A stretch of DNA of 25,521 bases, taken from a virus. Below, in pieces: positions 3,176 to 25,479 of the stretch. Each line of letters opens with the position of its first letter. Positions within the stretch are counted from its first letter, which is position 1. Made by a program: the position numbers and the translations under genes. Below the pieces are notes generated by a model. It searched no databases and had not been told where the DNA came from. It saw only the letters and a list, made by a program, of their open reading frames with translations. Location of the stretch: positions 1-25,521 of IMG/VR virus record IMGVR_UViG_3300024518_005604. One strand, 5' to 3'.

Positions 3176-4579
3176 TTAATTGTTATTATTGTAAGATACA
3201 CAGTCCTCTGCGGTTGCCGTGCTTGCGTTAAAATCCATCACATTTTTGAAAAAATATCTGCTCATATACATCAGAGGATCTACCCAATCATCATCTTCTT
3301 TGATAGCATCTTCTTTTTGATCGGTTCCGGATCTATTGGTCTTGTAGCGGTATATCGGGATCGTCCGAATAAGATCTGCACATCGCGGGTGTATAAGAAG
3401 ATCAGGCACATTGTGTGCATCTGGCATCATTAGCCGATTCAAAATTGATCTATTTAGTTCTCTGTCTTTTTGAGCCGGATCTGTCCAAATTCCGTAGTTT
3501 TCCAATTCAATTCGCGTCTGCCTCTCATGGTCACACAATCGGGTTTCTATTGGTCGATTGAATCTCGCGTCCCCCGAAAAATAAGAAATATCAGATTCTC
3601 TCTTGATGATTTCTTTGGCATGGATTTTTAGGAGTGTGTCAGTTGCCGAATATTCATCCCAAATATATAATTTTCCATCATGTTCGCCACCGAAAAGAGC
3701 AACGAAAGGATGCCGGGCTCCCAAATCAATACTTGTCACTTTTCGGATATTGACGGGGAGATTCTCGAAATGAGATGATTGTGCGCTCAGATCTTCTCTC
3801 CACTCCTTGAATACCGCGCCTGATAAAATCGTAAATAATCCATAAAATCTTCTTTCGATCTCATCTTTTGACATCCTCCCTTTTGCCTTCTCCTTTTGAT
3901 TAGTAGTGATATACTTGTTGTCCAGTAAGCTCACTGTCCATCTCGCGATGTCAGGATCGGGGGATTTATCGGCTCTATTTTGAGCATTGTAAAGATAAAT
4001 TCTTTGGTACATCCAATTTTTGCCCAATACGGGAGTCGCCCCCCCTAAGATGTAGCCATCACAATCAATGATGCGAGATAGACAATCGTTGTAAGTTTGT
4101 TCGGCGGCTGCCGACACCCTTTGTCCATCTTCATCTAATTGAATGATTGGTACGGAATCGGCAGAAAAACTTCCCGGCCCTGATTTCCACGTTTTATATT
4201 CTATTTTGCCCCCACATTGTAATTTTATAAATCGTGGGATTTCCTCTGTGACTCGCCAGTTGATATGCTTTATTTCCCAATTTGCTAAAAATTCTTTATG
4301 CCATCGCCAAATGGCTGATAATTTATCCTCCGTGAGTCCAACCGCCCAATAAAGCTTCCCTGGCAATTCCCTGATTTTGCTTATAAAGTCATAAGATACC
4401 GTTCCAGTCTTGCCCGCACGATCCCCCCCGAATAGAAATTTGATATGTTTTTTGCTTTGGTGGAAATCAGTAGCTTGTGTACTTGCAGGATTATAATTAG
4501 GATATGTCAATGAGTGCGGGATAATATTGGCGAAATGAAAATCACGTTTTTTTGCGCATAGCCGTCTCTTAGTGAGCAT
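3176..4579 (-). CDS. terL: Terminase large subunit
   Basis: The packaging motor that pumps DNA into the prohead and cuts it. From the ATG at 4579 it is 467 residues. Walker A is FGGDRAGKT (about residues 50-58 in this numbering), Walker B is VPIIQLDED about 90 residues later, and GGATP about 30 residues further is the coupling motif. The nuclease half shows TSIDLG with its Asp, then FSGDARF, and a final acidic cluster DDDWVDP, as expected for the RNase H-like fold. The frame also extends to a TTG at 4594, but the -10 box of a strong promoter lies on that extension, leaving the ATG as a leaderless start. The gene points away from the portal, and no small subunit gene is adjacent. The following virion gene starts 20 bases after its stop. 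Confidence 0.95.
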   Translation of the reverse strand: MLTKRRLCAKKRDFHFANIIPHSLTYPNYNPASTQATDFHQSKKHIKFLFGGDRAGKTGTVSYDFISKIRELPGKLYWAVGLTEDKLSAIWRWHKEFLANWEIKHINWRVTEEIPRFIKLQCGGKIEYKTWKSGPGSFSADSVPIIQLDEDGQRVSAAAEQTYNDCLSRIIDCDGYILGGATPVLGKNWMYQRIYLYNAQNRADKSPDPDIARWTVSLLDNKYITTNQKEKAKGRMSKDEIERRFYGLFTILSGAVFKEWREDLSAQSSHFENLPVNIRKVTSIDLGARHPFVALFGGEHDGKLYIWDEYSATDTLLKIHAKEIIKRESDISYFSGDARFNRPIETRLCDHERQTRIELENYGIWTDPAQKDRELNRSILNRLMMPDAHNVPDLLIHPRCADLIRTIPIYRYKTNRSGTDQKEDAIKEDDDWVDPLMYMSRYFFKNVMDFNASTATAEDCVSYNNNN

Positions 4580-4585
4580 AATGAT

Positions 4586-4614
4586 AATATACAAGAGTTC
4601 CCTTTTTTTGTCAA
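4586..4614 (-). promoter_or_regulatory. Strong terminase promoter, leaderless layout
   Basis: On the minus strand TTGACA (4614-4609), 17 bases, TATATT (4591-4586), then six bases and the ATG of terminase at 4579. Transcription starting about seven bases after the -10 box would begin at the ATG itself, so the mRNA would have no leader. Confidence 0.8.
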
Positions 4615-13305: not shown

Positions 13306-15951
13306 ATGGCAACTACAACGGATACTCTTATTTTTGAGATAAAAGTTGATGATGACGCGGAGGCTGTATTTTCCGCTTGGGATAAGCACTTTGAGAGCCT
13401 GTTGAAAAGCTCAAAAGAACTTGATAAGATCCTCTTGATTATGTCGAAAACATTGCAAAGAATAGGAGCTACGGGTTCTCAGGTTTTTAGCGATCTGCAA
13501 AAGACAGTTACCGATCTTGCCCCCAAAATTAAAACTGTCAAAGATGCGTTGTCGGTATATGACAAGGCAACCCAGGAGGCAAAGGAAGCAACTAAAAGTT
13601 TGGCATCTCGTATTAAAGATTTTTACGCCAACGAATTACGAAAAATGCGGGATGCTGTTATTGAATCAATAGAATCGTTTGTATCGCTAAAAGAAAATAT
13701 TAAAGGGTTAGGGCGTGCTTTCGAGACAGGGTTTAAAATCGCAACGGCAGCGGTCACTGGTTTTGCGTCACTGGCGTTAGATGCTTTGACGGCTGTGTTT
13801 GACCTTGTGAAAAAAGTCGGTGGAGTACTTGTTGATGAATTTGATAAAGCCTTTAAAAGTTCCGTCTCGTTGGAAGATGCCTTGTCAGGGGCGAAAAGAA
13901 CAGGGAATTTAACGGAAGAGCAAATGACTGATTTAGCTAAATCGGTAAGAGATCTCTCTTCTGTACAATTACAAGGGGCAGTCACAGCCGAAGAATTAGG
14001 CGAAGTTTTAGAAGTCGCCGGGCGACGGGGAATCTTGTCAGGGGAAGATTTTGAGAAATCATCAAGACAAGCCCTTAAATTTACAGAAGATGTTGCGAAA
14101 GCTTCTGTGGCTCTTGATCTTTCCTTCGGAAAAACAGCCGATGCACTCGGTAAAATACAGGGAGCTTTTCCAGGGAGTCAGGCAACCATCGGTCAGTTGG
14201 GAAATGCTTTTAATATTTTAGCCGATTCGACAAGGGCTGCGGCTCCCTCTATGATAGAAATTGCCAAAAGAGCCGCGCCTGCCTTATCCGTATTTAAGCT
14301 ATCACAAGGAGATCTTATCGGATTTTCAGGGGCGATGGATGCTATGGGCGTTTCATCGTTCACGTCAGCAACAGCCCTTCAAAGCGCATTCAAAGCAATG
14401 ACAGGGAGCACAGATGAGTTTGCTACTACATTTGGGATCAATGTGGCAGCATTCAATAAATTGGTTCAAGAGGACATGGGGCAGGCTATGGTGGTCTTTT
14501 TACAACATGTCCAAAAAATGGCAACTGAAACGCCAGGCGGTGTCCAACAAGTATCAGCAGCCTTATCTGAATTGAAAATCTCCGGGGCGGGGGTATCAAC
14601 GGCTATATTGGGTTTAGCAAATTTAGGGACGGAGTTGGAGACAAAATTCTTAAACCCCGCCAATCAAGGCTTGACAAACATGAATTCGATCAATGCTGAA
14701 TTCATAAATTCAATCTCTCGTGTGTCTCAATTATGGCAAGCGTTAGGGACAATCTGGATCAATACCACAGGGCAATTGACTGATGCGATGTTGCCCGCGA
14801 TCAAAAGCTTTCTGAGCGTTGTCAACCAAACTGCAATGGATTTTCAGCAGTGGATCGGAGCTTCCGGGATCGCTGATCAGCTTCGAGCGTCCCTGGAATC
14901 GCTTGTGCAAACTGATATAATCCCTCTGGTGAATCAATTTGTTGAATGGATAAAGACGTCAGAGGCTCTACAAGACTTTTTCATGCATGGGATTCCAGAC
15001 GGGATTGAGTCAGCGAAACTTGCTATTATTAGTCTGATTTCAAAATTTGAAACCTTTACCGGAGCAATTCAGCATGGGATGAGTGTATGGGATTCGCTCG
15101 TGATGGTATTTCCAAAATTGAAACAGGCAGAAAATATTCTCCTTGATATTGTTGCAGCGATCAAGGAAGTTATGGGCTGGGTTGAAAAAGCTGGGGGGGC
15201 GGTTGATATTTTTCGGATCGCCTGGGAGACTATCCGCGACACTGCATCAGACATCGGAAGTGTTTTTGAGCCTTTTTTTGACATGCTGGTTTCTGGGTTT
15301 GAAACGTCAAAGACCGCGATACAGGGCTTTATTGAAATAGCACAAGGGTTATCTAAGATCTTTACAAGCCCTCTTGACAGCATTCAAAAGTTAGGCAGTG
15401 GAATCGAAAATGTCTTTTCCTCACTGGTTAAATTTGTGAATGACTCGATAGGTGCGGTGGGCAAGCTTGCAAGCGCAATTGGAAGCATTGTTGGCAAATT
15501 AAAAGATGTCGGGCAGGAAGCTTTCGGGAATAGTACTTTTCCTGATATGCAAGAGTGGATCGGAAAAAATATTGGGGCTGTTTCAAACCTCAATTCGGGA
15601 TTTGGTGCTTCAGTGTCCGCGTTGTCGGCGGTAGCGAAAGCCGGGAAAAATACGGGTCAAACCCTTTCCAACATGAACAGTCAAAGACTTGCCATTAGCC
15701 AATCTAATCTCCCCTCATCAATCAGGAAAGAACTACTTCAAGCTACACAACAACAAGCTACACAACAGCAGTTCAACACGAATCAAATTACAGGTCAATC
15801 CGCGCAGGACACGCAGAGACGCAGCCAGGCTGCGGGGGCAACAATTGTTTTCCAAGGGCAAAACATTGTGAACGACGCATCGCGGCAGCAATATATCAGA
15901 GAAACCAACAAAGGACTACAAAAACTCGAGCGAATGTCGATCCAAGGGTAA
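13306..15951 (+). CDS. Tail tape measure protein
   Basis: The largest helical protein of the tail module, 881 residues. It sets tail length and is ejected with the DNA. The N-terminal 110 residues are helical and charged; residues about 140-180 (FKIATAAVTGFASLALDAL and onward) are hydrophobic enough to insert in a membrane; residues about 185-460 resemble the TP901-1-type tape measure core (LSGEDFEKSSRQAL, GKIQGAFPGSQ, MGVSSFTSATALQSAFKAM). The C-terminal 70 residues are Gln and Asn rich (QQATQQQFNTNQITGQ). By the usual 1.5 angstrom per residue rule the tail would be about 130 nm, which is an inference. No lysozyme or peptidase motif was seen. AAGGA precedes the ATG. Confidence 0.85.
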   Translation: MATTTDTLIFEIKVDDDAEAVFSAWDKHFESLLKSSKELDKILLIMSKTLQRIGATGSQVFSDLQKTVTDLAPKIKTVKDALSVYDKATQEAKEATKSLASRIKDFYANELRKMRDAVIESIESFVSLKENIKGLGRAFETGFKIATAAVTGFASLALDALTAVFDLVKKVGGVLVDEFDKAFKSSVSLEDALSGAKRTGNLTEEQMTDLAKSVRDLSSVQLQGAVTAEELGEVLEVAGRRGILSGEDFEKSSRQALKFTEDVAKASVALDLSFGKTADALGKIQGAFPGSQATIGQLGNAFNILADSTRAAAPSMIEIAKRAAPALSVFKLSQGDLIGFSGAMDAMGVSSFTSATALQSAFKAMTGSTDEFATTFGINVAAFNKLVQEDMGQAMVVFLQHVQKMATETPGGVQQVSAALSELKISGAGVSTAILGLANLGTELETKFLNPANQGLTNMNSINAEFINSISRVSQLWQALGTIWINTTGQLTDAMLPAIKSFLSVVNQTAMDFQQWIGASGIADQLRASLESLVQTDIIPLVNQFVEWIKTSEALQDFFMHGIPDGIESAKLAIISLISKFETFTGAIQHGMSVWDSLVMVFPKLKQAENILLDIVAAIKEVMGWVEKAGGAVDIFRIAWETIRDTASDIGSVFEPFFDMLVSGFETSKTAIQGFIEIAQGLSKIFTSPLDSIQKLGSGIENVFSSLVKFVNDSIGAVGKLASAIGSIVGKLKDVGQEAFGNSTFPDMQEWIGKNIGAVSNLNSGFGASVSALSAVAKAGKNTGQTLSNMNSQRLAISQSNLPSSIRKELLQATQQQATQQQFNTNQITGQSAQDTQRRSQAAGATIVFQGQNIVNDASRQQYIRETNKGLQKLERMSIQG

Positions 15952-15956
15952 TTTCT

Positions 15957-17036
15957 ATGTATGGAACTCTAAAATTCTTATATGAGAATTTAGCTGAATC
16001 CGCAACAATTACGCTGTCATCCCAGGCCAACGGCAAATATAGTTACGCGGCAAAAGAGGGCAAGGGTGTCGCCTCTATGACTGTGGGAGGTGTGTATTCC
16101 GGCACAAACGACAGAACATATCTGGTTGAGTGTGACTCTGTTTCGGCTGGCAGTGAGATCGGTCAGGCGACGGTACGCTGGCGGTCTTCAGATACAGCCG
16201 GGGCATGGGAACAAACAGGGGTGGTCACAATGACAACCCCCGTGACAACGTTAGAGGATGGTTTGACAATTTCGTTTCAAGGAGGCACGGGGACTGATTT
16301 TGTCGTTGGTGATTCCTGGCAATTTTATGTCAAAGCAACTTATGGATTTGAAAGACTGCTTGATCGCAATCGAATGACGGGATGGAAGTCTACGGGAGAC
16401 ACATCGGAAAATATCGTAATAGACGCGGGGGGGGCTGTACAAAAACAAGCTCTAATCTTGCAAGATCACAATTTAACAGCATCGGCTACAGTAATATTTG
16501 AAGAGAATCCCTCTGATTCATGGGGGGCACCATCTTATACTTTCACATTCCCTACAATAACAGATCCGTTGATATTGTATTTCGATGAAATATATCAATA
16601 TTCTCGTATAAATATTGCAGATCCCTCTAATCCTGAAGCGGTGATCCGCATCAACAATTTGTTTTTAGGGACTGTCCTCTCTTTGGAAAGACTCAATGCT
16701 GAATGGGGGAGTTCACAGCAGGAAGGCTACATTTTGCAAAAAAACGAGAGCGAGGCAGGAGTCAGTAGACGCTATAAATATGCCGGTCAACGGACGCTTC
16801 ATCTAAATTTCGGGAATCTCTTAAGTAATGAGGACAAAGACGCTCTTGTCACGATGCAAAACGCTCTTGTTCTCGGTTCACAGGTTGCCCCTCTTTGGTG
16901 CCACCTGTTTTCTGATGAGCAAAGCGCACTCAATCTGATGACTTGGGATAACTTAGGGGAATGGACTTTTGAATATTTTAGGTATCTTCTCAATAGCGGG
17001 GTTGAAATGATTTTAGAGGAGGTTCCGAAGGTATGA
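15957..17036 (+). CDS. Distal tail protein-like, with an inserted beta domain
   Basis: A 359-residue protein immediately after the tape measure, where the distal tail (Dit) or baseplate-hub adaptor is usually encoded. Residues about 30-120 form a beta domain (GGVYSGTNDRTYLVECD, then RWRSSDTAGAWEQTG, ending GDSWQFYV) like those inserted in many phage tail proteins. The remainder includes a segment IVIDAGGAVQKQALIL, a sandwich region and DEQSALNLMTWDNLGEWTFEYF, consistent with a Dit-type ring. It would form the ring at the tube tip and hold the hub encoded next. Its stop overlaps the hub start as ATGA. The role is inferred mainly from order. Confidence 0.6.
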   Translation: MYGTLKFLYENLAESATITLSSQANGKYSYAAKEGKGVASMTVGGVYSGTNDRTYLVECDSVSAGSEIGQATVRWRSSDTAGAWEQTGVVTMTTPVTTLEDGLTISFQGGTGTDFVVGDSWQFYVKATYGFERLLDRNRMTGWKSTGDTSENIVIDAGGAVQKQALILQDHNLTASATVIFEENPSDSWGAPSYTFTFPTITDPLILYFDEIYQYSRINIADPSNPEAVIRINNLFLGTVLSLERLNAEWGSSQQEGYILQKNESEAGVSRRYKYAGQRTLHLNFGNLLSNEDKDALVTMQNALVLGSQVAPLWCHLFSDEQSALNLMTWDNLGEWTFEYFRYLLNSGVEMILEEVPKV

Positions 17037-20000
17037 GACGTTTCTCAGAAACATACAATGCTGCAAGAATGCGAGGCGACAAACCTTTTATTTTGGCATT
17101 CGTTTTTTCAAATCTTGGATGCCATGTGGTCGGTAAGGAGACGCCAACGGGAGACCATGTTACAGGAACACCATACAATATTATAGATTGGTCAGCGCGG
17201 GTTCTCTCATTCGGCACATTTCGGAAATCGTTATCTGAGAATTCAAATAATATCCTGCAAACTCTATCACAAACGGAAATGTCAAGCTATACTCTCACTT
17301 GTGACAATGCCGATGAATACTTTACTAATTTATTGGCGAGAGAAGAATTAATCGGACAACAATTGTTAATTTTTCAGGGGTATTTTGACTCATCTTTTGC
17401 TGATCTTCAGCCACTTTTTAACGGGATCATCCAAAGCGTAGAAATGTCAACGCTCTCTATCCAAATATCGGCGAATCAGGCTGTAAAAAACACCGAACCG
17501 GATGATCCAACCATTAATACAGAAACACTCTACTCAATGCGGAATCCAGGGATAGGAAATACTGGGGCTGAAGAAAGTTTTACCTATGCTGAACTTCAGG
17601 ATGCGTTTTATACCGAAGACTATTGGGTTCTCACGACAACTTTTGTCGTTGATGATCTTGGAGTTGATCAACACATCCTTGAAATCGAAAATGATGCCTA
17701 TGGAAATACACGGCTTCTTGTCGGCCTCGACAGTGATAACCATCCCTACATCTATTGGAATAGTGCCAGCCCATCGGCTCCACAAGACCTCAGAGCGATC
17801 ACTTTTGATGGCATTACCATCAATCAACAAGAACTCTCACAACTTACTTTCACGATGGATCCCGCGAGTGCTTCAATCACCTGTAGGGATTTCTACCTGA
17901 ATTCAGATGTACAACCCCTCCCCGCGTTACTTACTTTTAATTCAAAATATGGATCGCCTGGTTCAGGAAATGATAATTTAGATGATCCAACAGGGATTGT
18001 AATTTTAAATAATTTTTTGTATATTTGCGATTTTGGAAATAATCGTATCGTAAAAAGAGATACAGATCTTAATTTTGTAGCTCTCTATAATTTGACTGAT
18101 TTTACGGGTCAACTCCCGATAGATATCTGTACTGATGGTGATTATTTTTATGTGTATGAAGTTTATGAAGACACAATCAACAAAGTCAATATTGCTAAAT
18201 ACACTTTGACATTTACTTTGGTTGATAGCGTGTATCTTTTTGATGGGGTTACAGGGGGAGGAATTTGTACTGATGGTACTTTTCTTTATACCGCTGATAA
18301 CAATAATGATAAAATTCGGAAACATAATACATCCTTGACTTTTATAGATGATGTGGGAAGTTTTGGGAGTGGGGATGATCAATTTAATGCACCATTTGGC
18401 GTTGATACAGACGGGGTACATCTGTACATTGCAGATAGCGTAAACGACAGGGTAAACGTTCGAGATTTAGATCTTATTTTTGTCAAAAATATCAACATTG
18501 CAACAACGCCAGGCAATCTAATAAAGCAAATTAAATTGGCTCCCCTTTTTTTCTATGGTGGGTTTTCAACAGAGATAAGATATATCGGATATACAGGTCA
18601 AGAGTTGTATGAGTTTGGGACATCAGGGTCAGGTGATGGGCAATTCCAGGGAGTGCAAGGTATCGCCCTTGACAGCAACAATAAATTATACATTTGTGAT
18701 ACTGGAAATGATAGGATTCAAAAATTTAACCAAGATGTTTCTTTGATGAATACAGATGATGAAGGAAATGATACCTTAATAATCGGGAAAGACTTTGGAG
18801 GGGGGGGCTTGGGCGATGGTGGTGGAATTTACAAAATTATCACATCAACCCTTGCCGGAATACCTCTGTCCATTTTCCAAAATATTGATAACGACAATCT
18901 TTTAACAGATTTCCCTGAATTGATACAAGGGCTTGACACGGCTCTTGTTGATGGGGTATGGGAGGAATTCGGAGAAATTGAGGAAATAATAAGTACAACA
19001 TCAGTTGAAGATGGAGTCGAGGCTCTCACGGAGATTATCATGCCCACTGCCGGGAGATATGCTGATCCAGGTGAAAATCAACAAAATGTCAATCTGCCTC
19101 TCGTCTACGGAGATATGACCGAAAATTCCGATGAAGCCGTCTGGACTGCGCCAGGGATAGATACAGTCAATTTTGTTTATTGCGTTTCGGGGTGGCCTCT
19201 CCTATCGGTTGCTAATGGGAATGTCGTTACCGTTTACGTTGATGGTGTAGAAACGCCATCAGGTTGGGTTTTTGACGAATCCAATGACTATGAAAGTCAA
19301 GGAAACATTGCGATCCTTGACTTTGCCTCAGACCCTGGCGGTGTGGTGACTGTGAGATGTAAAGGAAAAGATGATGGGGGAACATTAATCACGAATCCGA
19401 TCTCGGTCATTGACGATTTCCTTGATTATGTTGCGACATTGCTTGATGTCACGTGGCAAAAAGGGCAGCGTTCCTTTTCTGACGCGACCAATGCGGCTGA
19501 TCAGAATGGCTATACCTGCGCCGGGATTATCCTATCAAATAATACATTAGGATATTGGCTGCAAAATATCCTCAATTCTTTTTTGGGATGGTTCAATTTT
19601 GCGGAGGATGGGACACTTGATGTATATTTGCGTCCACTGTCCATTACCCCGAAAATTGTTGAAGAAGTGCAAGAATATAATGCCATACATTACGATATTC
19701 AAAAATCAATCGCAAATGTGTGTAATCGGCTTATTATTGATTATGCGTTATCATCAGCCGACGTGGACAGACGATTTAAAAATAATGCCCTGACTTCCTA
19801 TTTCCGAACGGCTGATGAAGTGTCAGAAGGCCAAAGCGTAGGGATTTATGGGGATCGAAAATGGTCATTAGCTTTCGATTGGACACGCAACACAGCCACC
19901 GTTGACACAATTATAGCCGCGATTTTTGACTTTTATCGTTTTCCTGATTGGATACTCAACTATTCAGGCCAAGACACAAAATTTCTTATTTTAGATCTTT

Positions 20001-20224
20001 ATGATCATATAGAGGGTTCTTTTTCTCTGCTACGGGATAATAACGGGGAAGTACAGGAGAACACTATTTTTGAATTACGCGGCCTTGAAATAAATCTTGA
20101 TAATTTCCAGGCTCAATTACAATTATTAAGCCTCATCTCATTGTACGAAGTATTTTTCGAGTCAACCGGTTTGCTCTTCCTGACCAGCAATGAAGCAAAG
20201 ATTAACGTAAGGAGAGAATTTTGA
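17033..20224 (+). CDS. Tail hub/tip protein with LamG-like and NHL propeller insertions
   Basis: A 1063-residue protein. Residues 1-165 look like a tail hub N-domain (SYTLTCDNADEYFTNLLARE). Residues about 175-300 form a LamG/concanavalin-like beta sandwich (YWVLTTTFVVDDLG, HILEIENDAYG). Residues about 304-575 hold six NHL-type blades; the clearest are DPTGIVILNNFLYICDFGNN (from about 318), APFGVDTDGVHLYIADSVND (about 453) and QGIALDSNNKLYICDTGNDR (about 542). Residues about 650-1063 return to hub sequence (NPISVIDDFLDYVATLLDVT, ILNSFLGWFNFAEDGTLDVY). It caps the tail tube and contacts the cell. An uninterrupted frame and flanking hub halves argue against an assembly artefact. GGAGG lies ten bases upstream of the ATG, which overlaps the Dit stop. 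Confidence 0.75.
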   Translation: MRRFSETYNAARMRGDKPFILAFVFSNLGCHVVGKETPTGDHVTGTPYNIIDWSARVLSFGTFRKSLSENSNNILQTLSQTEMSSYTLTCDNADEYFTNLLAREELIGQQLLIFQGYFDSSFADLQPLFNGIIQSVEMSTLSIQISANQAVKNTEPDDPTINTETLYSMRNPGIGNTGAEESFTYAELQDAFYTEDYWVLTTTFVVDDLGVDQHILEIENDAYGNTRLLVGLDSDNHPYIYWNSASPSAPQDLRAITFDGITINQQELSQLTFTMDPASASITCRDFYLNSDVQPLPALLTFNSKYGSPGSGNDNLDDPTGIVILNNFLYICDFGNNRIVKRDTDLNFVALYNLTDFTGQLPIDICTDGDYFYVYEVYEDTINKVNIAKYTLTFTLVDSVYLFDGVTGGGICTDGTFLYTADNNNDKIRKHNTSLTFIDDVGSFGSGDDQFNAPFGVDTDGVHLYIADSVNDRVNVRDLDLIFVKNINIATTPGNLIKQIKLAPLFFYGGFSTEIRYIGYTGQELYEFGTSGSGDGQFQGVQGIALDSNNKLYICDTGNDRIQKFNQDVSLMNTDDEGNDTLIIGKDFGGGGLGDGGGIYKIITSTLAGIPLSIFQNIDNDNLLTDFPELIQGLDTALVDGVWEEFGEIEEIISTTSVEDGVEALTEIIMPTAGRYADPGENQQNVNLPLVYGDMTENSDEAVWTAPGIDTVNFVYCVSGWPLLSVANGNVVTVYVDGVETPSGWVFDESNDYESQGNIAILDFASDPGGVVTVRCKGKDDGGTLITNPISVIDDFLDYVATLLDVTWQKGQRSFSDATNAADQNGYTCAGIILSNNTLGYWLQNILNSFLGWFNFAEDGTLDVYLRPLSITPKIVEEVQEYNAIHYDIQKSIANVCNRLIIDYALSSADVDRRFKNNALTSYFRTADEVSEGQSVGIYGDRKWSLAFDWTRNTATVDTIIAAIFDFYRFPDWILNYSGQDTKFLILDLYDHIEGSFSLLRDNNGEVQENTIFELRGLEINLDNFQAQLQLLSLISLYEVFFESTGLLFLTSNEAKINVRREF

Positions 20225-20874
20225 GCTATACCTCAGCACACACAGGCGCCGACATAGATCTGTCTGTCACGCAGTCTCAAAGTGGAACACTTAGCGATGG
20301 AACAGACTCAACAACCGCGTCTGAACTACGCACATTTTTAGATGACCCTCCTACTGGGATCATTGGTGAGGTACGGTATGGTTTTTGGAGTTCCTCCCCT
20401 GATCCTGATCGATGGATTTTATGCTATGGGAGCATAGGGAGTGCATCCAGTGGGGCTGATAATGCCGCGTCAAAATATGAAGCCCTTTTTACACATCTTT
20501 GGGATACATTGTCTGACACATACGCTCCTGTTTCGACAGGCAGGGGGGCGAGTGCTGCGGCTGATTTTGCTGCCAACAAAACTCTGACAATGCCTGATTC
20601 CAGAGGCCGATCTCCAATGGGAGCCGGTACCGGTGGCGGTCTAACCGCCCGAACATTAGGTGATACAATTGGAGAAGAAGACCACGCGAATGCAGAGGCC
20701 GAAAACGCGACACATGATCACGATTATACGACTGGATCGGGTGGAGGAACTGATATTAATACGACAAGCCCGACGGCAGCATGGGACACACTTACAACGA
20801 CAACGTCAGGGAGCGGGTCTCCTCATAATACCGTGCAACCCTCTGTCATTGTCCAAGCCATCATACGTTATTAG
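20221..20874 (+). CDS. Tail collar-domain protein (receptor-binding/fibre tip)
   Basis: A 217-residue protein starting at TTG 20221, which overlaps the hub stop codon by four bases and follows GGAG. It carries the phage Collar pattern: GIIGEVRYGFWSSS, a Trp-x-Leu-Cys-x-Gly (WILCYGS), YEALFTHLW, then LTMPDSRGRSPMGAG and GEEDHANAE, and the typical ending HNTVQPSVIVQAIIRY. The domain occurs at tips of tail fibres and short-tail proteins, which bind cell surfaces. The N-terminal 40 residues are low complexity, Ser and Thr rich, and may attach the domain to the hub. It is small for a complete fibre, so it is probably a tip piece or needle. Confidence 0.85.
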   Translation: MSYTSAHTGADIDLSVTQSQSGTLSDGTDSTTASELRTFLDDPPTGIIGEVRYGFWSSSPDPDRWILCYGSIGSASSGADNAASKYEALFTHLWDTLSDTYAPVSTGRGASAAADFAANKTLTMPDSRGRSPMGAGTGGGLTARTLGDTIGEEDHANAEAENATHDHDYTTGSGGGTDINTTSPTAAWDTLTTTTSGSGSPHNTVQPSVIVQAIIRY

Positions 20875-20882
20875 GAGATCTT

Positions 20883-21554
20883 ATGTTTTCAGAAAGAAAC
20901 GGAAGAATCTACATAAAAAATAATGGAGACAAGTTTGAATGTCTGTCTGATGAATTTAAAGCATTCGAGCCGTCATATCAACCTATTTCGACCGGACAAA
21001 TTCGATATTGGAACACCAGGAAACAATATTTAAGTATAAATAATAATCAAGGGATTGACCCATTTTATACGCCTCAGCGATACTTAGAATATCAGAATAA
21101 AATTGATTATTATGTGAGCCTTTATGCGGAGGCGCACCCGATAGCTCCGGAACCTCCGGCATTGCCTGAAATGTATCTTAATTTATTACTGTCAGGAGGC
21201 GATGAAAAAGATCCGGTAGGCTGTTCTGATGAGATAGCAATGGCGATAAGTGGAGATATTCGCGGCGAACCAGACTCACCAGGACTCCCAGTGTTAATTT
21301 CCTCCGATTGGCGGGTCACGATCCGCAAGGTAATTTCTACAATTAATCCTATAGCAATAGATTCGAGGGTTTTAAGCGTATCAATTGTAGACAATGATTT
21401 GACACTCTTTAGTTTTCTCCCGATTGGCTGGGAATCAGGGACATATCAGATCTCTGAAGAGGATTTTGAATTGATTCAAGGCGACGTCTTTGGACTTCAG
21501 GGTGATTATCGTATTCGTTTACTCAATTCTCCACTTTTTTTCGAAGTTCTATAG
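20883..21554 (+). CDS. Hypothetical tail-tip accessory protein
   Basis: A 223-residue protein with AGGAGA before its ATG, eight bases after the collar gene. The N-terminal 100 residues are polar with many Tyr and Asn (RYWNTRKQYLSINNNQGIDP, YQNKIDYYVSLYAEA), followed by a proline-rich linker (APEPPALPEMY). The C-terminal part is beta-rich (LPVLISSDWRVTIRKVI, LLNSPLFFEVL). No enzymatic motif, signal peptide or membrane helix is visible. Given its neighbours (collar protein before, virion adhesin-like gene after), it is likely a tail-tip, chaperone or adhesin accessory protein, but no family is recognised. Confidence 0.65.
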   Translation: MFSERNGRIYIKNNGDKFECLSDEFKAFEPSYQPISTGQIRYWNTRKQYLSINNNQGIDPFYTPQRYLEYQNKIDYYVSLYAEAHPIAPEPPALPEMYLNLLLSGGDEKDPVGCSDEIAMAISGDIRGEPDSPGLPVLISSDWRVTIRKVISTINPIAIDSRVLSVSIVDNDLTLFSFLPIGWESGTYQISEEDFELIQGDVFGLQGDYRIRLLNSPLFFEVL

Positions 21555-21562
21555 GAGGCTCT

Positions 21563-22375
21563 ATGATTAATACACAAGGCTTGCCACTTGAACTTAGCGC
21601 ATTACTTAGCAATGGTTTCGCAGAAATCAGTACGGCCAATAAATTTGGACGGGCGCCTGACGGGATGCAAACGACTGTTACCGACGTATGGGATAGAGCA
21701 GACGCAGTACCCACTCAACAAATATGGCTGCCTCCCACAACAGCCAGATTACACGCGATTGTCAGTACGAGTCTTGCCGATAGCGACACGGGAGGGGTCA
21801 ACCCGCAAGGAGCGGGATGCCGAACTGTTGAGGTGTACGGTTTACAAACTTGGGCATCTTTGGAGACATCAGAGATCGTCACTCTGGATGGAACCACGCC
21901 AGTCAATACGATCAACTCTTATGTGATCATACATCGAGTTATTTGCAAGACATGGGGATCATCAGGCCCCAACGTAGGAATAATTACGATAACGGCTGAT
22001 GTTGATGGGACTGTTACAGCCCAAATAAACGTAAGTAAAGGTCAAACACAGATGGCAGTATATGGGATAGGTTCCGTGACAACAGCTTACATGACGAACT
22101 ATTACGCATCGTTGCATGATGCCAGAAACACCACTCAAAGTTCTTTTGTCGATATATGCTTACATATTAATCCATCCCCTGATATTGAGACAAATGTGTA
22201 CATCACGAAGCATACACAAGGGGTATCAAGTTTTGGGTCAAGCTATCTCCCCCATCGCTTTTCCCCATATTTTGAAATTGTAGGCCCGGCAATAATTAAA
22301 ATGCAAGGGACATCAAGTGATGCTGATAATGATCTATCATCGGGGTTTGATTTATACCTCTCCACAATAAAATAA
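21563..22375 (+). CDS. Virion surface protein of the tail-tip region
   Basis: A 270-residue beta-rich protein with AGGAGG before its ATG. NKFGRAPDG, VTDVWDRAD, TARLHAIVSTSLADSD and the strand ETSEIVTLDGTTPVNTINSY resemble a family of virion proteins found in many environmental tailed phages, in which a short N-terminal tail-attachment segment precedes a beta-sandwich. It ends in a strand DLSSGFDLYLSTIK. There is no catalytic signature. The role, surface decoration or adhesion, is inferred from pattern and from its place after the collar gene. It is similar in style to the minus-strand protein at 2440-3156, with which it may share origin or partner, though I saw no extended identity. Confidence 0.6.
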   Translation: MINTQGLPLELSALLSNGFAEISTANKFGRAPDGMQTTVTDVWDRADAVPTQQIWLPPTTARLHAIVSTSLADSDTGGVNPQGAGCRTVEVYGLQTWASLETSEIVTLDGTTPVNTINSYVIIHRVICKTWGSSGPNVGIITITADVDGTVTAQINVSKGQTQMAVYGIGSVTTAYMTNYYASLHDARNTTQSSFVDICLHINPSPDIETNVYITKHTQGVSSFGSSYLPHRFSPYFEIVGPAIIKMQGTSSDADNDLSSGFDLYLSTIK

Positions 22376-22377
22376 AA

Positions 22378-22800
22378 ATGAAAACAACCAGGGTCACGGA
22401 TTACGCACAATTTTTACGGAGTAGTGGGGTTAAAATCCCTGATATTTGCCGAAAGCTTGGGGTATCCCAGGCTTGGGTATACCGCAAAACCAGCAACGTC
22501 AAAGAGCCTGCTGTGACAAAGAGAGATGTAATCCTACTTCTTGTGTCCATTATTTTTAAATTGGCGCAGAACGCCAATGCGCATATTGATGAAATCGAAA
22601 CTTTCCAAGCATTCGTAAGCCCGATCTCAAAGATCGCATCGACAATTCGGAATTTGACCGAGGTTACGGAAACGACAGAGATATTAGATCGGGATGAGAT
22701 TTTAGTACAAATGATTACAGAAGCCGCCCGATCTGAAACTCCTGAAGAAGTCCTCATTTGGCTTCAAGAAAAGTATGACAGAAACAAGGAGGCTCTGTAA
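22378..22800 (+). CDS. HTH protein, candidate small terminase subunit
   Basis: A 140-residue protein beginning two bases after the previous stop, with no ribosome binding site. Residues about 11-32 form a clear helix-turn-helix (SSGVKIPDICRKLGVSQAWV), followed by an all-helical middle (DVILLLVSIIFKLAQNANAH) and acidic C-terminal helices. This arrangement, N-terminal DNA-binding HTH plus helical oligomerisation core, is that of small terminase subunits, and no other candidate lies near terL. The alternative is a late transcription regulator. It lies just before a small-gene cluster with its own promoter-like sequence. Confidence in a DNA-binding protein is good; in small terminase it is low. 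Confidence 0.65.
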   Translation: MKTTRVTDYAQFLRSSGVKIPDICRKLGVSQAWVYRKTSNVKEPAVTKRDVILLLVSIIFKLAQNANAHIDEIETFQAFVSPISKIASTIRNLTEVTETTEILDRDEILVQMITEAARSETPEEVLIWLQEKYDRNKEAL

Positions 22801-22821
22801 TGGGTTCACCACGTTAAAAAA

Positions 22822-22855
22822 ATTTGACTCAAATGGATCAAAACCATGCTAAATT
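22822..22855 (+). promoter_or_regulatory. Possible internal promoter with palindromic operator
   Basis: TTGACT (22824-22829) is embedded in a perfect 13-base odd palindrome ATTTGACTCAAAT (22822-22834). An extended -10 (TGCTAAATT, 22847-22855) follows, though the 20-base spacer is long. GGGGGAA and the ATG at 22865 come next. It lies in the only gap over 60 bases within the plus-strand run. Confidence 0.35.
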
Positions 22856-22864
22856 GGGGGAAAC

Positions 22865-23116
22865 ATGGACGCGAATAAAAAACAAGAGATACCAGCAGGA
22901 AACGGGCAAAAAGTCGTTGACATTGTGATCAATGATATAATACAGAGGGCAGAAGAAGGAAAAGAACATTACGGAATTTATTTGAGAACCATGAATGGGA
23001 AGGATGCACTCATTGAAGCCTATGAAGAAGCACTTGATCTTGTTATGTATTTACGCCAAGCAATTTTAGAAAGAGAAGAGGATCGAATCAGGGGGGAATG
23101 TGAAATACAAACTTGA
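22865..23116 (+). CDS. Small helical protein, possibly MazG-like
   Basis: An 83-residue protein with GGGGGAA before its ATG. The second half, YGIYLRTMNGKDALIEAYEEALDLVMYLRQ in outline, has an acidic helix pair (EAYEEALDLVMYLR) like the metal-binding E-x-x-E/D helices of MazG-type nucleotide pyrophosphohydrolases and of small phage homologues. The N-terminal half is charged and helical. If active it would hydrolyse noncanonical or alarmone nucleotides during infection; the second acidic pair is not obvious, so it may instead be a truncated or structural relative. It overlaps the next gene by 17 bases and probably belongs to the same small cluster. Confidence 0.55.
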   Translation: MDANKKQEIPAGNGQKVVDIVINDIIQRAEEGKEHYGIYLRTMNGKDALIEAYEEALDLVMYLRQAILEREEDRIRGECEIQT

Positions 23117-23336
23117 TGAAATTGTCGAAATTGTGACAGAAACACTTGAAGAGACGGCTAAAGATTTGCTTAATTTGGAAGACAGGCGACCTGCGATCCA
23201 TCTCACTATCAAATCAATGTACGCTCTTTTGAAATGTATCGAGGCTGATGAAATTGAAGAAACTCTCATGGCGAGAGGATTTGAGAACACTCACCAGATC
23301 ATTGCTGAGACAAGTTTTTGTAAATTACAGAAATAA
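23100..23336 (+). CDS. Small acidic helical hypothetical protein
   Basis: A 78-residue protein starting at GTG 23100 after AGGGGGGA and overlapping the upstream gene by 17 bases. It is almost entirely helical and acidic at the N-terminus (LDEIVEIVTETLEETAKDLL), with a conserved-looking RRPAIHLTIKSMYALL segment and a C-terminal TSFCKLQK. No motif or family is recognised. The strong ribosome binding site supports it as real despite its length. It could be a partner of the preceding MazG-like protein or a small host-takeover protein; nothing in it decides. Confidence 0.55.
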   Translation: MKYKLDEIVEIVTETLEETAKDLLNLEDRRPAIHLTIKSMYALLKCIEADEIEETLMARGFENTHQIIAETSFCKLQK

Positions 23337-23342
23337 GAAATA

Positions 23343-23756
23343 ATGCCAACGAAGGAAATTAAAGATTTAAAACAGAGTTCGCTATCTATATTTCTTCCGC
23401 TCCTTAATGGCCCTTATGCGTTGCCAGTAATAATGGGAGGGATACTCTGGTTCTTGTCTGGAATGACAGATGATCAAACAAATAGATTGAAAGAGGTTCT
23501 CCCCCTATTGAACAGCACACCAGGGATTGCTCTTGCTATAGTTATTGTGGTGTCCTATTTAGGCAATATCTTCGTCTCTCCTATCAGAGAGATGACGAAG
23601 GCTCTAAGTAATATTAATCATGCCATAGAGGACATGAGAGGAGAGATCCACAATAAGATCGAAAGATTTGATAAAAAAATAGAAATGGCAGCCAAGCAAC
23701 ACAGAGATATTCAAGAAGAAATAGAAAAGCTTGCAAAATTCTACCCGGGACATTAA
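23343..23756 (+). CDS. Holin-like membrane protein with coiled-coil tail
   Basis: A 137-residue protein with two membrane helices, about residues 24-42 (PYALPVIMGGILWFLSGM) and 60-80 (PGIALAIVIVVSYLGNIFV), separated by a short polar turn, followed by a long charged coiled coil (MRGEIHNKIERFDKKIEMAA). Size and two-helix layout fit class II holins or holin-associated proteins, although a cytoplasmic coiled coil of this length is atypical. No endolysin or spanin gene is found nearby. It lies at the end of the late run, where lysis genes are common. Alternatives are an exclusion protein or a membrane anchor for an assembly factor. Confidence 0.6.
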   Translation: MPTKEIKDLKQSSLSIFLPLLNGPYALPVIMGGILWFLSGMTDDQTNRLKEVLPLLNSTPGIALAIVIVVSYLGNIFVSPIREMTKALSNINHAIEDMRGEIHNKIERFDKKIEMAAKQHRDIQEEIEKLAKFYPGH

Positions 23757-23757
23757 C

Positions 23758-24129
23758 ATGAAAGAAGGGAAATTGACCTATAGTAATGATCCTATCAGAT
23801 ATTACATGATTGATCTCGATAAAATTGAACTCATGACCCTGAAAAATAAAAGATCGGGCATTATTCAATACCGTCCGACTCGATGGCGGAAATTTCTTTG
23901 CGGAATTTTGACATGCGGGCATAGAATGGGATTCGTTCGGCTCCCGGAATCTGTCATAAAAAATTTTCTTGATTATAGAGTCGCGGCGACAGCCGTAGGC
24001 TCAACAAAAGTAAAAATTAACGGATTCACAGCAATGATTGAACCCTGGAACATTGGGAATGTTTTCAAATTTTGTATTGAATCCTTCCAATTCGGTACCT
24101 TTTGGCGTTTTTGGAGGTGGAGGTGGTAA
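23758..24129 (+). CDS. Hypothetical basic protein, last gene of the plus-strand run
   Basis: A 123-residue protein from ATG 23758, one base after the previous stop. It shows DPIRYYMIDLDKIELMTLKN, a basic PTRWRKFLCGILTCGHRMGF segment and GSTKVKINGFTAMIEPWNIG. The C-terminus reads FWRFWRWRW, a tryptophan/arginine run encoded by GGAGGTGGAGGTGG-like sequence; it looks abnormal and may mark a junction where the true end was lost. No family is recognised. A weak ribosome binding site (CGGGAC) precedes the start. It converges on the minus-strand gene at 24185, 55 bases away, with no clear terminator between. Confidence 0.55.
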   Translation: MKEGKLTYSNDPIRYYMIDLDKIELMTLKNKRSGIIQYRPTRWRKFLCGILTCGHRMGFVRLPESVIKNFLDYRVAATAVGSTKVKINGFTAMIEPWNIGNVFKFCIESFQFGTFWRFWRWRW

Positions 24130-24143
24130 TTTAAAATCTCCCT

Positions 24144-24160
24144 CCGTCTGTTCTTTAAAT
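24144..24160 (-). repeat. 17-bp copy of the methyltransferase LKNRR region
   Basis: CCGTCTGTTCTTTAAAT here is identical to 24763-24779, which encodes the LKNRR motif near the end of the methyltransferase gene. On the minus strand this copy also reads DLKNRRREIL in one frame, in the same orientation, so it may be a degenerate fragment of a methyltransferase tail. Confidence 0.5.
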
Positions 24161-24172
24161 CTTTCCTGGTCA

Positions 24173-24183
24173 GCGCATTGTTA
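24173..24183 (-). repeat. attC-like motif, copy 1 (TAACAATGCGC)
   Basis: On the minus strand TAACAATGCGC begins one base after the stop of the 24185 gene. The wider sequence (GTCAG-CGCATTGTTA on the plus strand) matches copy 2 at 24674-24684. No pairing right half was found, so if it was an attC site it is truncated. Confidence 0.45.
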
Positions 24184-24184
24184 T

Positions 24185-24511
24185 CTATTCATTGATGTCT
24201 ATTTGGTCAATATCTTCAACGATTTTCAATGCCCTTAATTCACCAGGGTCAAATTCATCTTTCTTGTCTTCAAAATACAAAAGAATTTCTTCTTCTGTCT
24301 CAGCTTTGAATTTATCTCTTTCTAATTCTACGGGTTGCCACACTTTTTCTTTATTTTTTTCGAAATAATCGTTATATGCTAACTGTTGCAATGTATAGTA
24401 TGTACTCACGATTTTTTCTCCTGATAGATAACGCCCAGATTGAGCCGGTTTGAGGGGAAAACCGGAGTTTGACATGTCAACCAACGCCGCGCCCCTCAAA
24501 GTCGTTTCCAT
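24185..24511 (-). CDS. Hypothetical acidic protein
   Basis: A minus-strand protein of 108 residues from ATG 24511, or 96 from the in-frame ATG at 24475 (MSNSGFPLKPAQSGRYL). Neither start has a good ribosome binding site. The core is helical and rich in Glu, Lys and Tyr (STYYTLQQLAYNDYFEKNKE), the C-terminal third strongly acidic (ETEEEILLYFEDKKDEFDPG). No family is recognised. It lies downstream of the methyltransferase in the same orientation, 179 bases after it, and both genes are followed at once by the same TAACAATGCGC motif, which is how gene cassettes are arranged. It could alternatively be a fragment of a larger protein. Confidence 0.55.
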   Translation of the reverse strand: METTLRGAALVDMSNSGFPLKPAQSGRYLSGEKIVSTYYTLQQLAYNDYFEKNKEKVWQPVELERDKFKAETEEEILLYFEDKKDEFDPGELRALKIVEDIDQIDINE

Positions 24512-24556
24512 TCTGTTTTGTTGGCATTATTCGACATCATTTTCAACTGCGCCATT

Positions 24557-24578
24557 TGACGCATAGCGTTATGCGTCA
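24557..24578. repeat. Perfect hairpin TGACGCATA-GCGT-TATGCGTCA
   Basis: Nine-base perfect arms around a four-base loop in the gap between the two minus-strand genes. No T run follows on either strand, so it is not an ordinary terminator. It may be a protein-binding palindrome or part of a recombination-site fold. Confidence 0.5.
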
Positions 24579-24687
24579 GACGCCAAACACGCGCCTGTAC
24601 GCTGTTCATAGTGGCAACCAAACCTCTGCTTCCTTCTCATAATCTCATCTCCTGGCTTCGCGCTTGCAGTCAGGCGCATTGTTAGAC
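24579..24687. other. Putative degenerate attC recombination site (copy 2)
   Basis: The plus strand ends in GTTAGAC (24681-24687), a perfect GTTRRRY core, six bases from the methyltransferase stop. GCGCCTG (about 24591-24597) and CAGGCGC (24671-24677) are exact complements about 75 bases apart, which would form the base of a stem; the outer left box (GCCAAAC) departs from consensus. A length near 110 bases is within the attC range. There is no integrase in view and the middle pairs poorly, so this is tentative. A 23-codon minus-strand frame with AGGAG (24569-24640) also lies here. Confidence 0.35.
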
Positions 24688-24690
24688 ACC

Positions 24691-25479
24691 TTAGTTCATT
24701 TCCAGGTCAAACAGACTGATTTGCCGTCTGACCGGATCATAATTTGTAATCAAGATTTCCGCCCGTCTGTTCTTTAAATTACACCTTTCGCCTAATTCTG
24801 TGACGAATAAACCATGTTCTTCTGCCATGTCTATGACGAGAGGATTATTGAACTCCGACACGGCAAAACGAATGCCTGAACCTGTCAGGATAGAAAACAA
24901 ATCCCGTGTATCATCTTCTGTGAAACCTTCTGCGTAATTATTCGACGTTCCAATATATGGCGGATCTGCATAAATAAAAGCTCTATTCAAATCGAGTTCA
25001 TGCCTAAACGCTATTCTTTTTAAAATATCCCTGAAATCGTCATTTACAAACTGAACAAATGAAATCAAATCAAATGCGTCTTTAATTTTGTCGATCAGTA
25101 TGCGCTTAGAATTATTTTGCCCTAAATTAAGAGTATCTGAACGCCCTAAAAAACTAAAATTTGACAAAAATAAAAAGCGTGTCGCTTTCCAAACACAATC
25201 ATTCTCTTCTTGCTCTTTCCAGTATTGAAAGAGCTTGTCATGTACGGGCATCATACGGATTGCCTCTTCAAGTGCTTCCTTATGTTCCTTAAGCACCATG
25301 AACAAGTTAAACACATCTTCATCTTTGTCATTTGAAATGATGTACTTTGCCCGGTCAATCATCGCGAAGGTGACAGCCCCGCTTCCCATGAACATGTCAA
25401 TAAACGTCGTAATGTTTTCCGGGAATAACGGCAGCAGTTTGGGTAACAGATTCGTTTTCTTTCCTAACCTTCTCAACAT
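24691..25479 (-). CDS. DNA adenine N6-methyltransferase (D12 class, Dam-like)
   Basis: A 262-residue enzyme that transfers a methyl group from S-adenosylmethionine to adenine N6 in DNA. Motif I is DMFMGSGAVTF (about residues 28-38), motif IV is YADPPY (about 171-176), and NLKNRRAEILITNY near the C-terminus is typical of the D12 class. NDKDEDVFNLFMVL matches the conserved stretch after motif I. The family usually starts with M(Y/L)RR-x-G-x-K, matching ATG 25479, which has GGGA upstream; the frame is nonetheless open to the right edge (14 further codons). Phage methyltransferases of this type protect DNA from host restriction; no cognate nuclease is visible. It points away from the structural genes and is followed by an attC-like motif. 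Confidence 0.9.
   Translation of the reverse strand: MLRRLGKKTNLLPKLLPLFPENITTFIDMFMGSGAVTFAMIDRAKYIISNDKDEDVFNLFMVLKEHKEALEEAIRMMPVHDKLFQYWKEQEENDCVWKATRFLFLSNFSFLGRSDTLNLGQNNSKRILIDKIKDAFDLISFVQFVNDDFRDILKRIAFRHELDLNRAFIYADPPYIGTSNNYAEGFTEDDTRDLFSILTGSGIRFAVSEFNNPLVIDMAEEHGLFVTELGERCNLKNRRAEILITNYDPVRRQISLFDLEMN
24763..24779 (-). repeat. 17-bp repeat within the methyltransferase gene
   Basis: Partner of the identical sequence at 24144-24160; here it encodes LKNRR in the conserved C-terminal motif of the methyltransferase. Confidence 0.6.

Follow-up and report, generated by a model that had tools for sequence, protein, structure and literature searches.

An NHL propeller in a putative tail hub protein of an uncultivated phage, a candidate acquired adhesion head

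The NHL propeller is a binding domain known chiefly from proteins of animals and bacteria. Six-bladed examples comprise Drosophila Thin (6d69 and 6xg7), TRIM2, TRIM3, TRIM71, Brat, and the sensor of PknD, which are matched in sequence and fold (fold Z 31 to 23) by the propeller described here, although these come from animals or bacteria and in several cases bind RNA or proteins, while the present domain is acidic and lies in a putative phage tail protein. Among phages, insertion of carbohydrate-binding domains is established for tail hub, Tal, and Dit proteins (PMC7291167), and the tail-tip megatron of roseophage R4C contains an inserted carbohydrate-binding module (PMC10276861). The present locus resembles evolved Tal/Dit (PMC7291167) and the megatron (PMC10276861) in having a binding-type domain inserted in a hub-type tail-tip protein but differs from both in that the insert is an NHL propeller rather than a carbohydrate-binding module. 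The tail fibre NRS2_61 of Nitratiruptor phage NrS-2 has been described as containing an NHL domain of six repeats, and NrS-3 lacks three of these (PMC9723563). Despite the NHL name in that report, the repeats (L007:15820-18111) matched Pfam SBBP (E = 8e-23) and not NHL; like the present protein, it belongs to a phage tail and has a propeller of repeats that was described as NHL, but it is a separate tail fibre, no hub, and its repeats are SBBP by Pfam. A literature search, thin on subscription journals, retrieved no description of an NHL propeller in a tail hub and left the NrS-2 fibre as the sole precedent. A hub with an inserted binding domain is known; an NHL module in a hub appears to be new, none having been found described.

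The window analyzed here is an uncultivated tailed-phage contig of 25,521 nucleotides, positions 1 to 25,521 of the IMG/VR virus record IMGVR_UViG_3300024518_005604. An open reading frame on its plus strand encodes a product of 1063 amino acids, the putative tail hub protein that carries the NHL propeller and the remainder of the insert. The gene, its parts, and its neighbors were:
13306-15951, plus strand: tail tape measure protein (phrog_28, E = 2.9e-21; PhageMin_Tail, E = 1.4e-15)
15957-17036, plus strand: phrog_8610 protein adjoining the hub gene (E = 4.9e-6)
17033-20224, plus strand: putative tail hub protein with insertion, 1063 amino acids, weak phrog_8917 match, following the tape measure and phrog_8610 genes
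17033-17521, plus strand: N-terminal hub-like domain, residues 1-163, from its hhalign pairing with the MinM1-type family
17522-17941, plus strand: upstream part of the insert, residues 164-303, no Pfam, PHROGs, or PDB sequence match
17942-18745, plus strand: six-bladed NHL propeller, residues 304-571 (working boundaries), from Pfam, phmmer, a blade HMM, and AlphaFold2
18746-19006, plus strand: acidic linker to the second hub domain, residues 572-658, from a charge count, containing a run of glycines
19007-20224, plus strand: candidate C-terminal hub domains, residues 659-1063, from the weak phrog_8917 match and hhalign to the MinM1-type family
20221-20874, plus strand: collar- or fibre-type tail protein encoded after the hub gene (match to the tail protein family phrog_8763, E = 1.1e-19)

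Residues ~304-571 hold a real six-bladed NHL propeller, as the original prediction had proposed for residues ~304-575, and Pfam, phmmer, the blade HMM, and the AlphaFold2 fold match agreed on this. Pfam NHL (PF01436) matched the full protein with E = 1.2e-11 (44.4 bits against a cut-off of 20), two single repeats lying above the cut-off. In phmmer searches of PDB sequences, NHL propellers ranked first, led by the Drosophila Thin NHL domain (2e-28 with the full protein), followed by TRIM71, TRIM2, TRIM3, and, lower down, PknD; the propeller segment alone gave 4.6e-35. A blade HMM built from 12 blades of only two proteins of another phage, and hence independent of the window protein, matched at residues 307, 361, 410, 441, and 528 with 32.3, 0.7, 14.7, 32.9, and 41.4 bits, compared with a maximum of 6.7 bits over 200 shuffles of the segment. 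Four blades were accordingly good (14.7 to 41.4 bits) and the one at residue 361 was weak, and the gap at residues 486-527 between matched blades has room for one more, the sixth. The blades were placed as follows:
17942-18091, plus strand: blade 1, from a blade HMM match and working blade limits
18092-18241, plus strand: blade 2, divergent and of low model confidence, from a weak blade HMM match and the AlphaFold2 model
18242-18352, plus strand: blade 3, from a blade HMM match
18353-18487, plus strand: blade 4, from a blade HMM match
18488-18613, plus strand: blade 5, divergent, placed from spacing and the model only
18614-18745, plus strand: blade 6, the best NHL match of the six, from Pfam and the blade HMM

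The segment was modeled with AlphaFold2 from an alignment with seven NHL rows taken from other loci. The underlying MAFFT alignment had blade 2 out of register and was retained because five of the six blades were in register. The resulting model was a propeller (pLDDT 71.6, pTM 0.75) with low confidence in blade 2 and part of blade 5. Foldseek and VIA-align ranked NHL propeller crystal structures first, matched end to end (Drosophila Thin NHL: Z 30.8, 2.4 Å, 257 aligned residues), and the structure check suggested with the original prediction therefore returned a propeller rather than an unclosed fold. The full chain modeled without relatives reached a pLDDT of 30, from which the hub fold of the flanks is unreadable. 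Enzymes were also among the fold neighbors, namely PAL, an amidating lyase, at Z 25.4 and a lactonase with a propeller fold at Z 23.2, in line with an enzyme that would act on the host surface as a lactonase, a lyase, or by cleaving glycans; such an activity is considered quite improbable, as NHL binding domains matched the model more closely than either enzyme (Z 26 to 31) and Pfam gave NHL only. RNA binding as in TRIM-NHL proteins was thought unlikely because the propeller is acidic (18 K+R vs. 36 D+E) and situated outside the cell.

The identification of the carrier as a phage tail hub is supported, if less strongly than the propeller, by synteny and weak homology. The gene order (tape measure, phrog_8610 protein, NHL-bearing gene, tail protein) corresponds to a tail-tip position, and the phrog_8610 protein is possibly Dit-like. 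The weak phrog_8917 match covered residues 705-863 (E = 0.0036), improving to E = 3.3e-4 once the insert was removed; the family itself has no annotated function. A Pfam search of the protein matched no hub family and only NHL. The flanks had originally been called hub-type, and this description draws on the weak phrog_8917 homology and the gene order.

Synechococcus phage MinM1 offered a point of comparison, as it encodes a clear phrog_8917 protein (E = 2e-77) beside a clear phrog_8610 protein (E = 7e-35). Given this adjacency, the two weak family matches of the window likewise fall on neighboring genes, with the order of the pair swapped between the two phages. The MinM1 phrog_8917 protein has 576 amino acids and no NHL domain, and the putative hub protein minus residues 164-658 has 568. 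A MinM1-type profile was built from relatives of the MinM1 protein, five retrieved from IMG/VR and a sixth found in Azospirillum phage Cd. In hhalign it scored 27.2 against the insert-free hub protein; the highest score among 200 shuffles was 23.4, and none of ten other proteins exceeded 18.8. The pairwise hhalign P was 0.016, indicating weak homology. The signal sits in the C-terminal part. The end of the N-terminal domain (GQQLLIFQGYFDSSFADLQPLFNGI) was paired with the same part of the MinM1-type family, but the score was independent of this pairing and unchanged when the parts were reordered, so that the N-terminal half of the comparison has no independent support. A HMMER search with a MinM1-type profile yielded no real match to the hub protein, the weak match being specific to hhalign, and the profile had no match in the PDB.

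Approximately 495 residues, consisting of the upstream domain, the propeller, and the linker, appear to be inserted between two predicted hub domains, because the MinM1 protein lacks the domain and has nearly the length of the remaining core (576 vs. 568 amino acids). This sequence comparison lends moderate confidence to the insertion in the hub foreseen by the original prediction: the core is of normal length without the insert and the MinM1 protein lacks the domain, but the homology to MinM1 is weak. The linker region is strongly acidic (2 K+R vs. 20 D+E in residues 573-665). The LamG-like sandwich initially placed before the propeller found no database support, since residues 160-305 matched nothing at all in Pfam, PHROGs, or the PDB sequences; an all-beta domain at residues 164-303 is plausible.

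Closer relatives of the hub, with or without the domain, were not found in the collections searched. A tblastn search of 50,697 phage records gave nothing for either the full hub or its C-terminal part alone, and two scans of bacterial genomes returned no hub relatives. A search for phrog_8917 in four phage records had no match, and its control likewise had no match anywhere. Scans of IMG/VR with proteins of the window phage recovered only one nearly identical contig (3300024520_000445), apart from which the terminase scan detected only a single distant, unrelated phage.

Base composition set the propeller apart from the rest of the gene. Its GC was 0.348 and its GC3 0.265, compared with 0.433 and 0.394 in the main ORFs, and none of 342 equal-sized windows in the main ORFs of the contig was as low in either. 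Given the protein sequence and the codon usage of the phage itself, the amino-acid-corrected GC of the propeller had a z of -4.15, while the remaining four parts of the hub gene were within ±1 standard deviation. The stretch is thus richer in A+T than its flanks, as had been suspected from the sequence by eye. The low G+C fits acquisition from an A+T-richer source, short of proof, and can also reflect local selection; an origin of the propeller by transfer is what we infer. Alternatively, the carrier could be a tail protein other than the hub, for instance part of the baseplate or a central fibre, in which the propeller is old and integral. The lack of a Pfam hub match, the weak homology to a family itself without known function, and the failure to find close relatives lacking the domain are in line with such a carrier, but its gene follows the tape measure beside a phrog_8610 protein as in MinM1, its core length matches that of the MinM1 protein, and the compositional break is limited to the propeller, making this alternative unlikely.

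Scanning IMG/VR with blade 6 revealed NHL arrays in other viral contigs. In the uncultivated L031, a tape measure gene (phrog_8125, E = 1e-45), a Baseplate_J protein, and a gpI-like protein (by position) are followed by tandem NHL paralogues of 395 and 393 amino acids (L031:4309-6675), in both of which an N-terminal domain precedes a six-bladed NHL propeller, likely a duplicated tail-fibre receptor-binding protein. In L029, a frame of 909 codons containing NHL repeats lies after the tape measure, and L027 and L030, parts of one 159-kb contig of a large phage (3300005573_001166), encode several NHL-array proteins whose arrays are separated by long Ser-rich linkers (SSSSSSTSFSS...). The arrays of L026 and L028 occurred in secreted-looking, bacterial-looking proteins, and these genes may belong to a host. 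L031, L029, and L027/L030 thus show the NHL propeller to be a recurrent feature of phage tail genes, and the original view of the module as unusual for a tail tip therefore stands in part: none was found described in a hub, but other uncultivated phages do have such propellers in their tail genes. These cases resemble the window in having NHL arrays in phage genes, near the tape measure in L031 and L029, and differ in being stand-alone or fibre-like proteins, none inserted in a phrog_8917-type protein. Tentatively, and with the balance slightly against it, NHL propellers might form a mobile and so far undescribed class of receptor-binding heads across different phage tail carriers, namely the hub of the window, the P2/Mu-like tandem fibres of L031, the tape-measure neighbor of L029, and the Ser-rich multi-propeller proteins of L027/L030.

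The preferred reading of the locus, with a probability of roughly 0.6, is a tail-tip hub equipped with an acquired adhesion head, which the insert of ~495 residues would form and whose propeller would bind a host surface molecule. On this view, the protein would serve an uncultivated tailed phage as its tail-tip hub, and a block comprising the uncharacterized N-terminal part, the NHL propeller, and the linker would have entered between the first and second hub domains. Hub copies would ring the tail tip with one propeller per copy pointing outward or downward, and the propeller faces could bind a glycan or exposed protein of the host surface, thereby aiding adsorption ahead of DNA delivery. 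We infer the hub copy number, the exposure of the propeller, and the receptor contact, and consider receptor binding by the propeller plausible. Propellers also commonly bind proteins, and a fibre-type gene (phrog_8763) directly follows the hub gene, such that the domain might instead serve as a docking platform within the virion, holding other tail proteins such as the collar-type fibre or stabilizing the hub with no host contact. However, the MinM1 protein manages without a propeller and the L031 propellers end proteins in a tail-fibre gene position, where host contact fits better; docking thus seems a doubtful explanation. Receptor-binding domains set phage host range and are hard to recognize. 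If NHL propellers do recur as adhesion heads of environmental phages, they would mark such proteins in a way that is simple to search for, and phage adsorption could be approached through a fold already studied in depth in designed Pizza proteins and TRIM-NHL domains.

The window and the nearly identical contig differed at 11 positions over 19.7 kb, with 0 in the hub gene. Ten of the 11 differences were downstream of the hub gene (window 21107-25142) and the tape measure gene held the other. Past the right end of the window, the partner contig carries a further ~6.1 kb of the genome (L011:1-6139), adding a DnaB-like helicase and a protein with a heptad tandem repeat (LAELNTS/P). Within the window, protein P0006 (21563-22375, phrog_8198) has relatives in cyanophages and beside portal genes of freshwater podovirus-like phages. 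The large terminase gene (3176-4594) is encoded on the minus strand, and the portal and structural genes after it run the other way.
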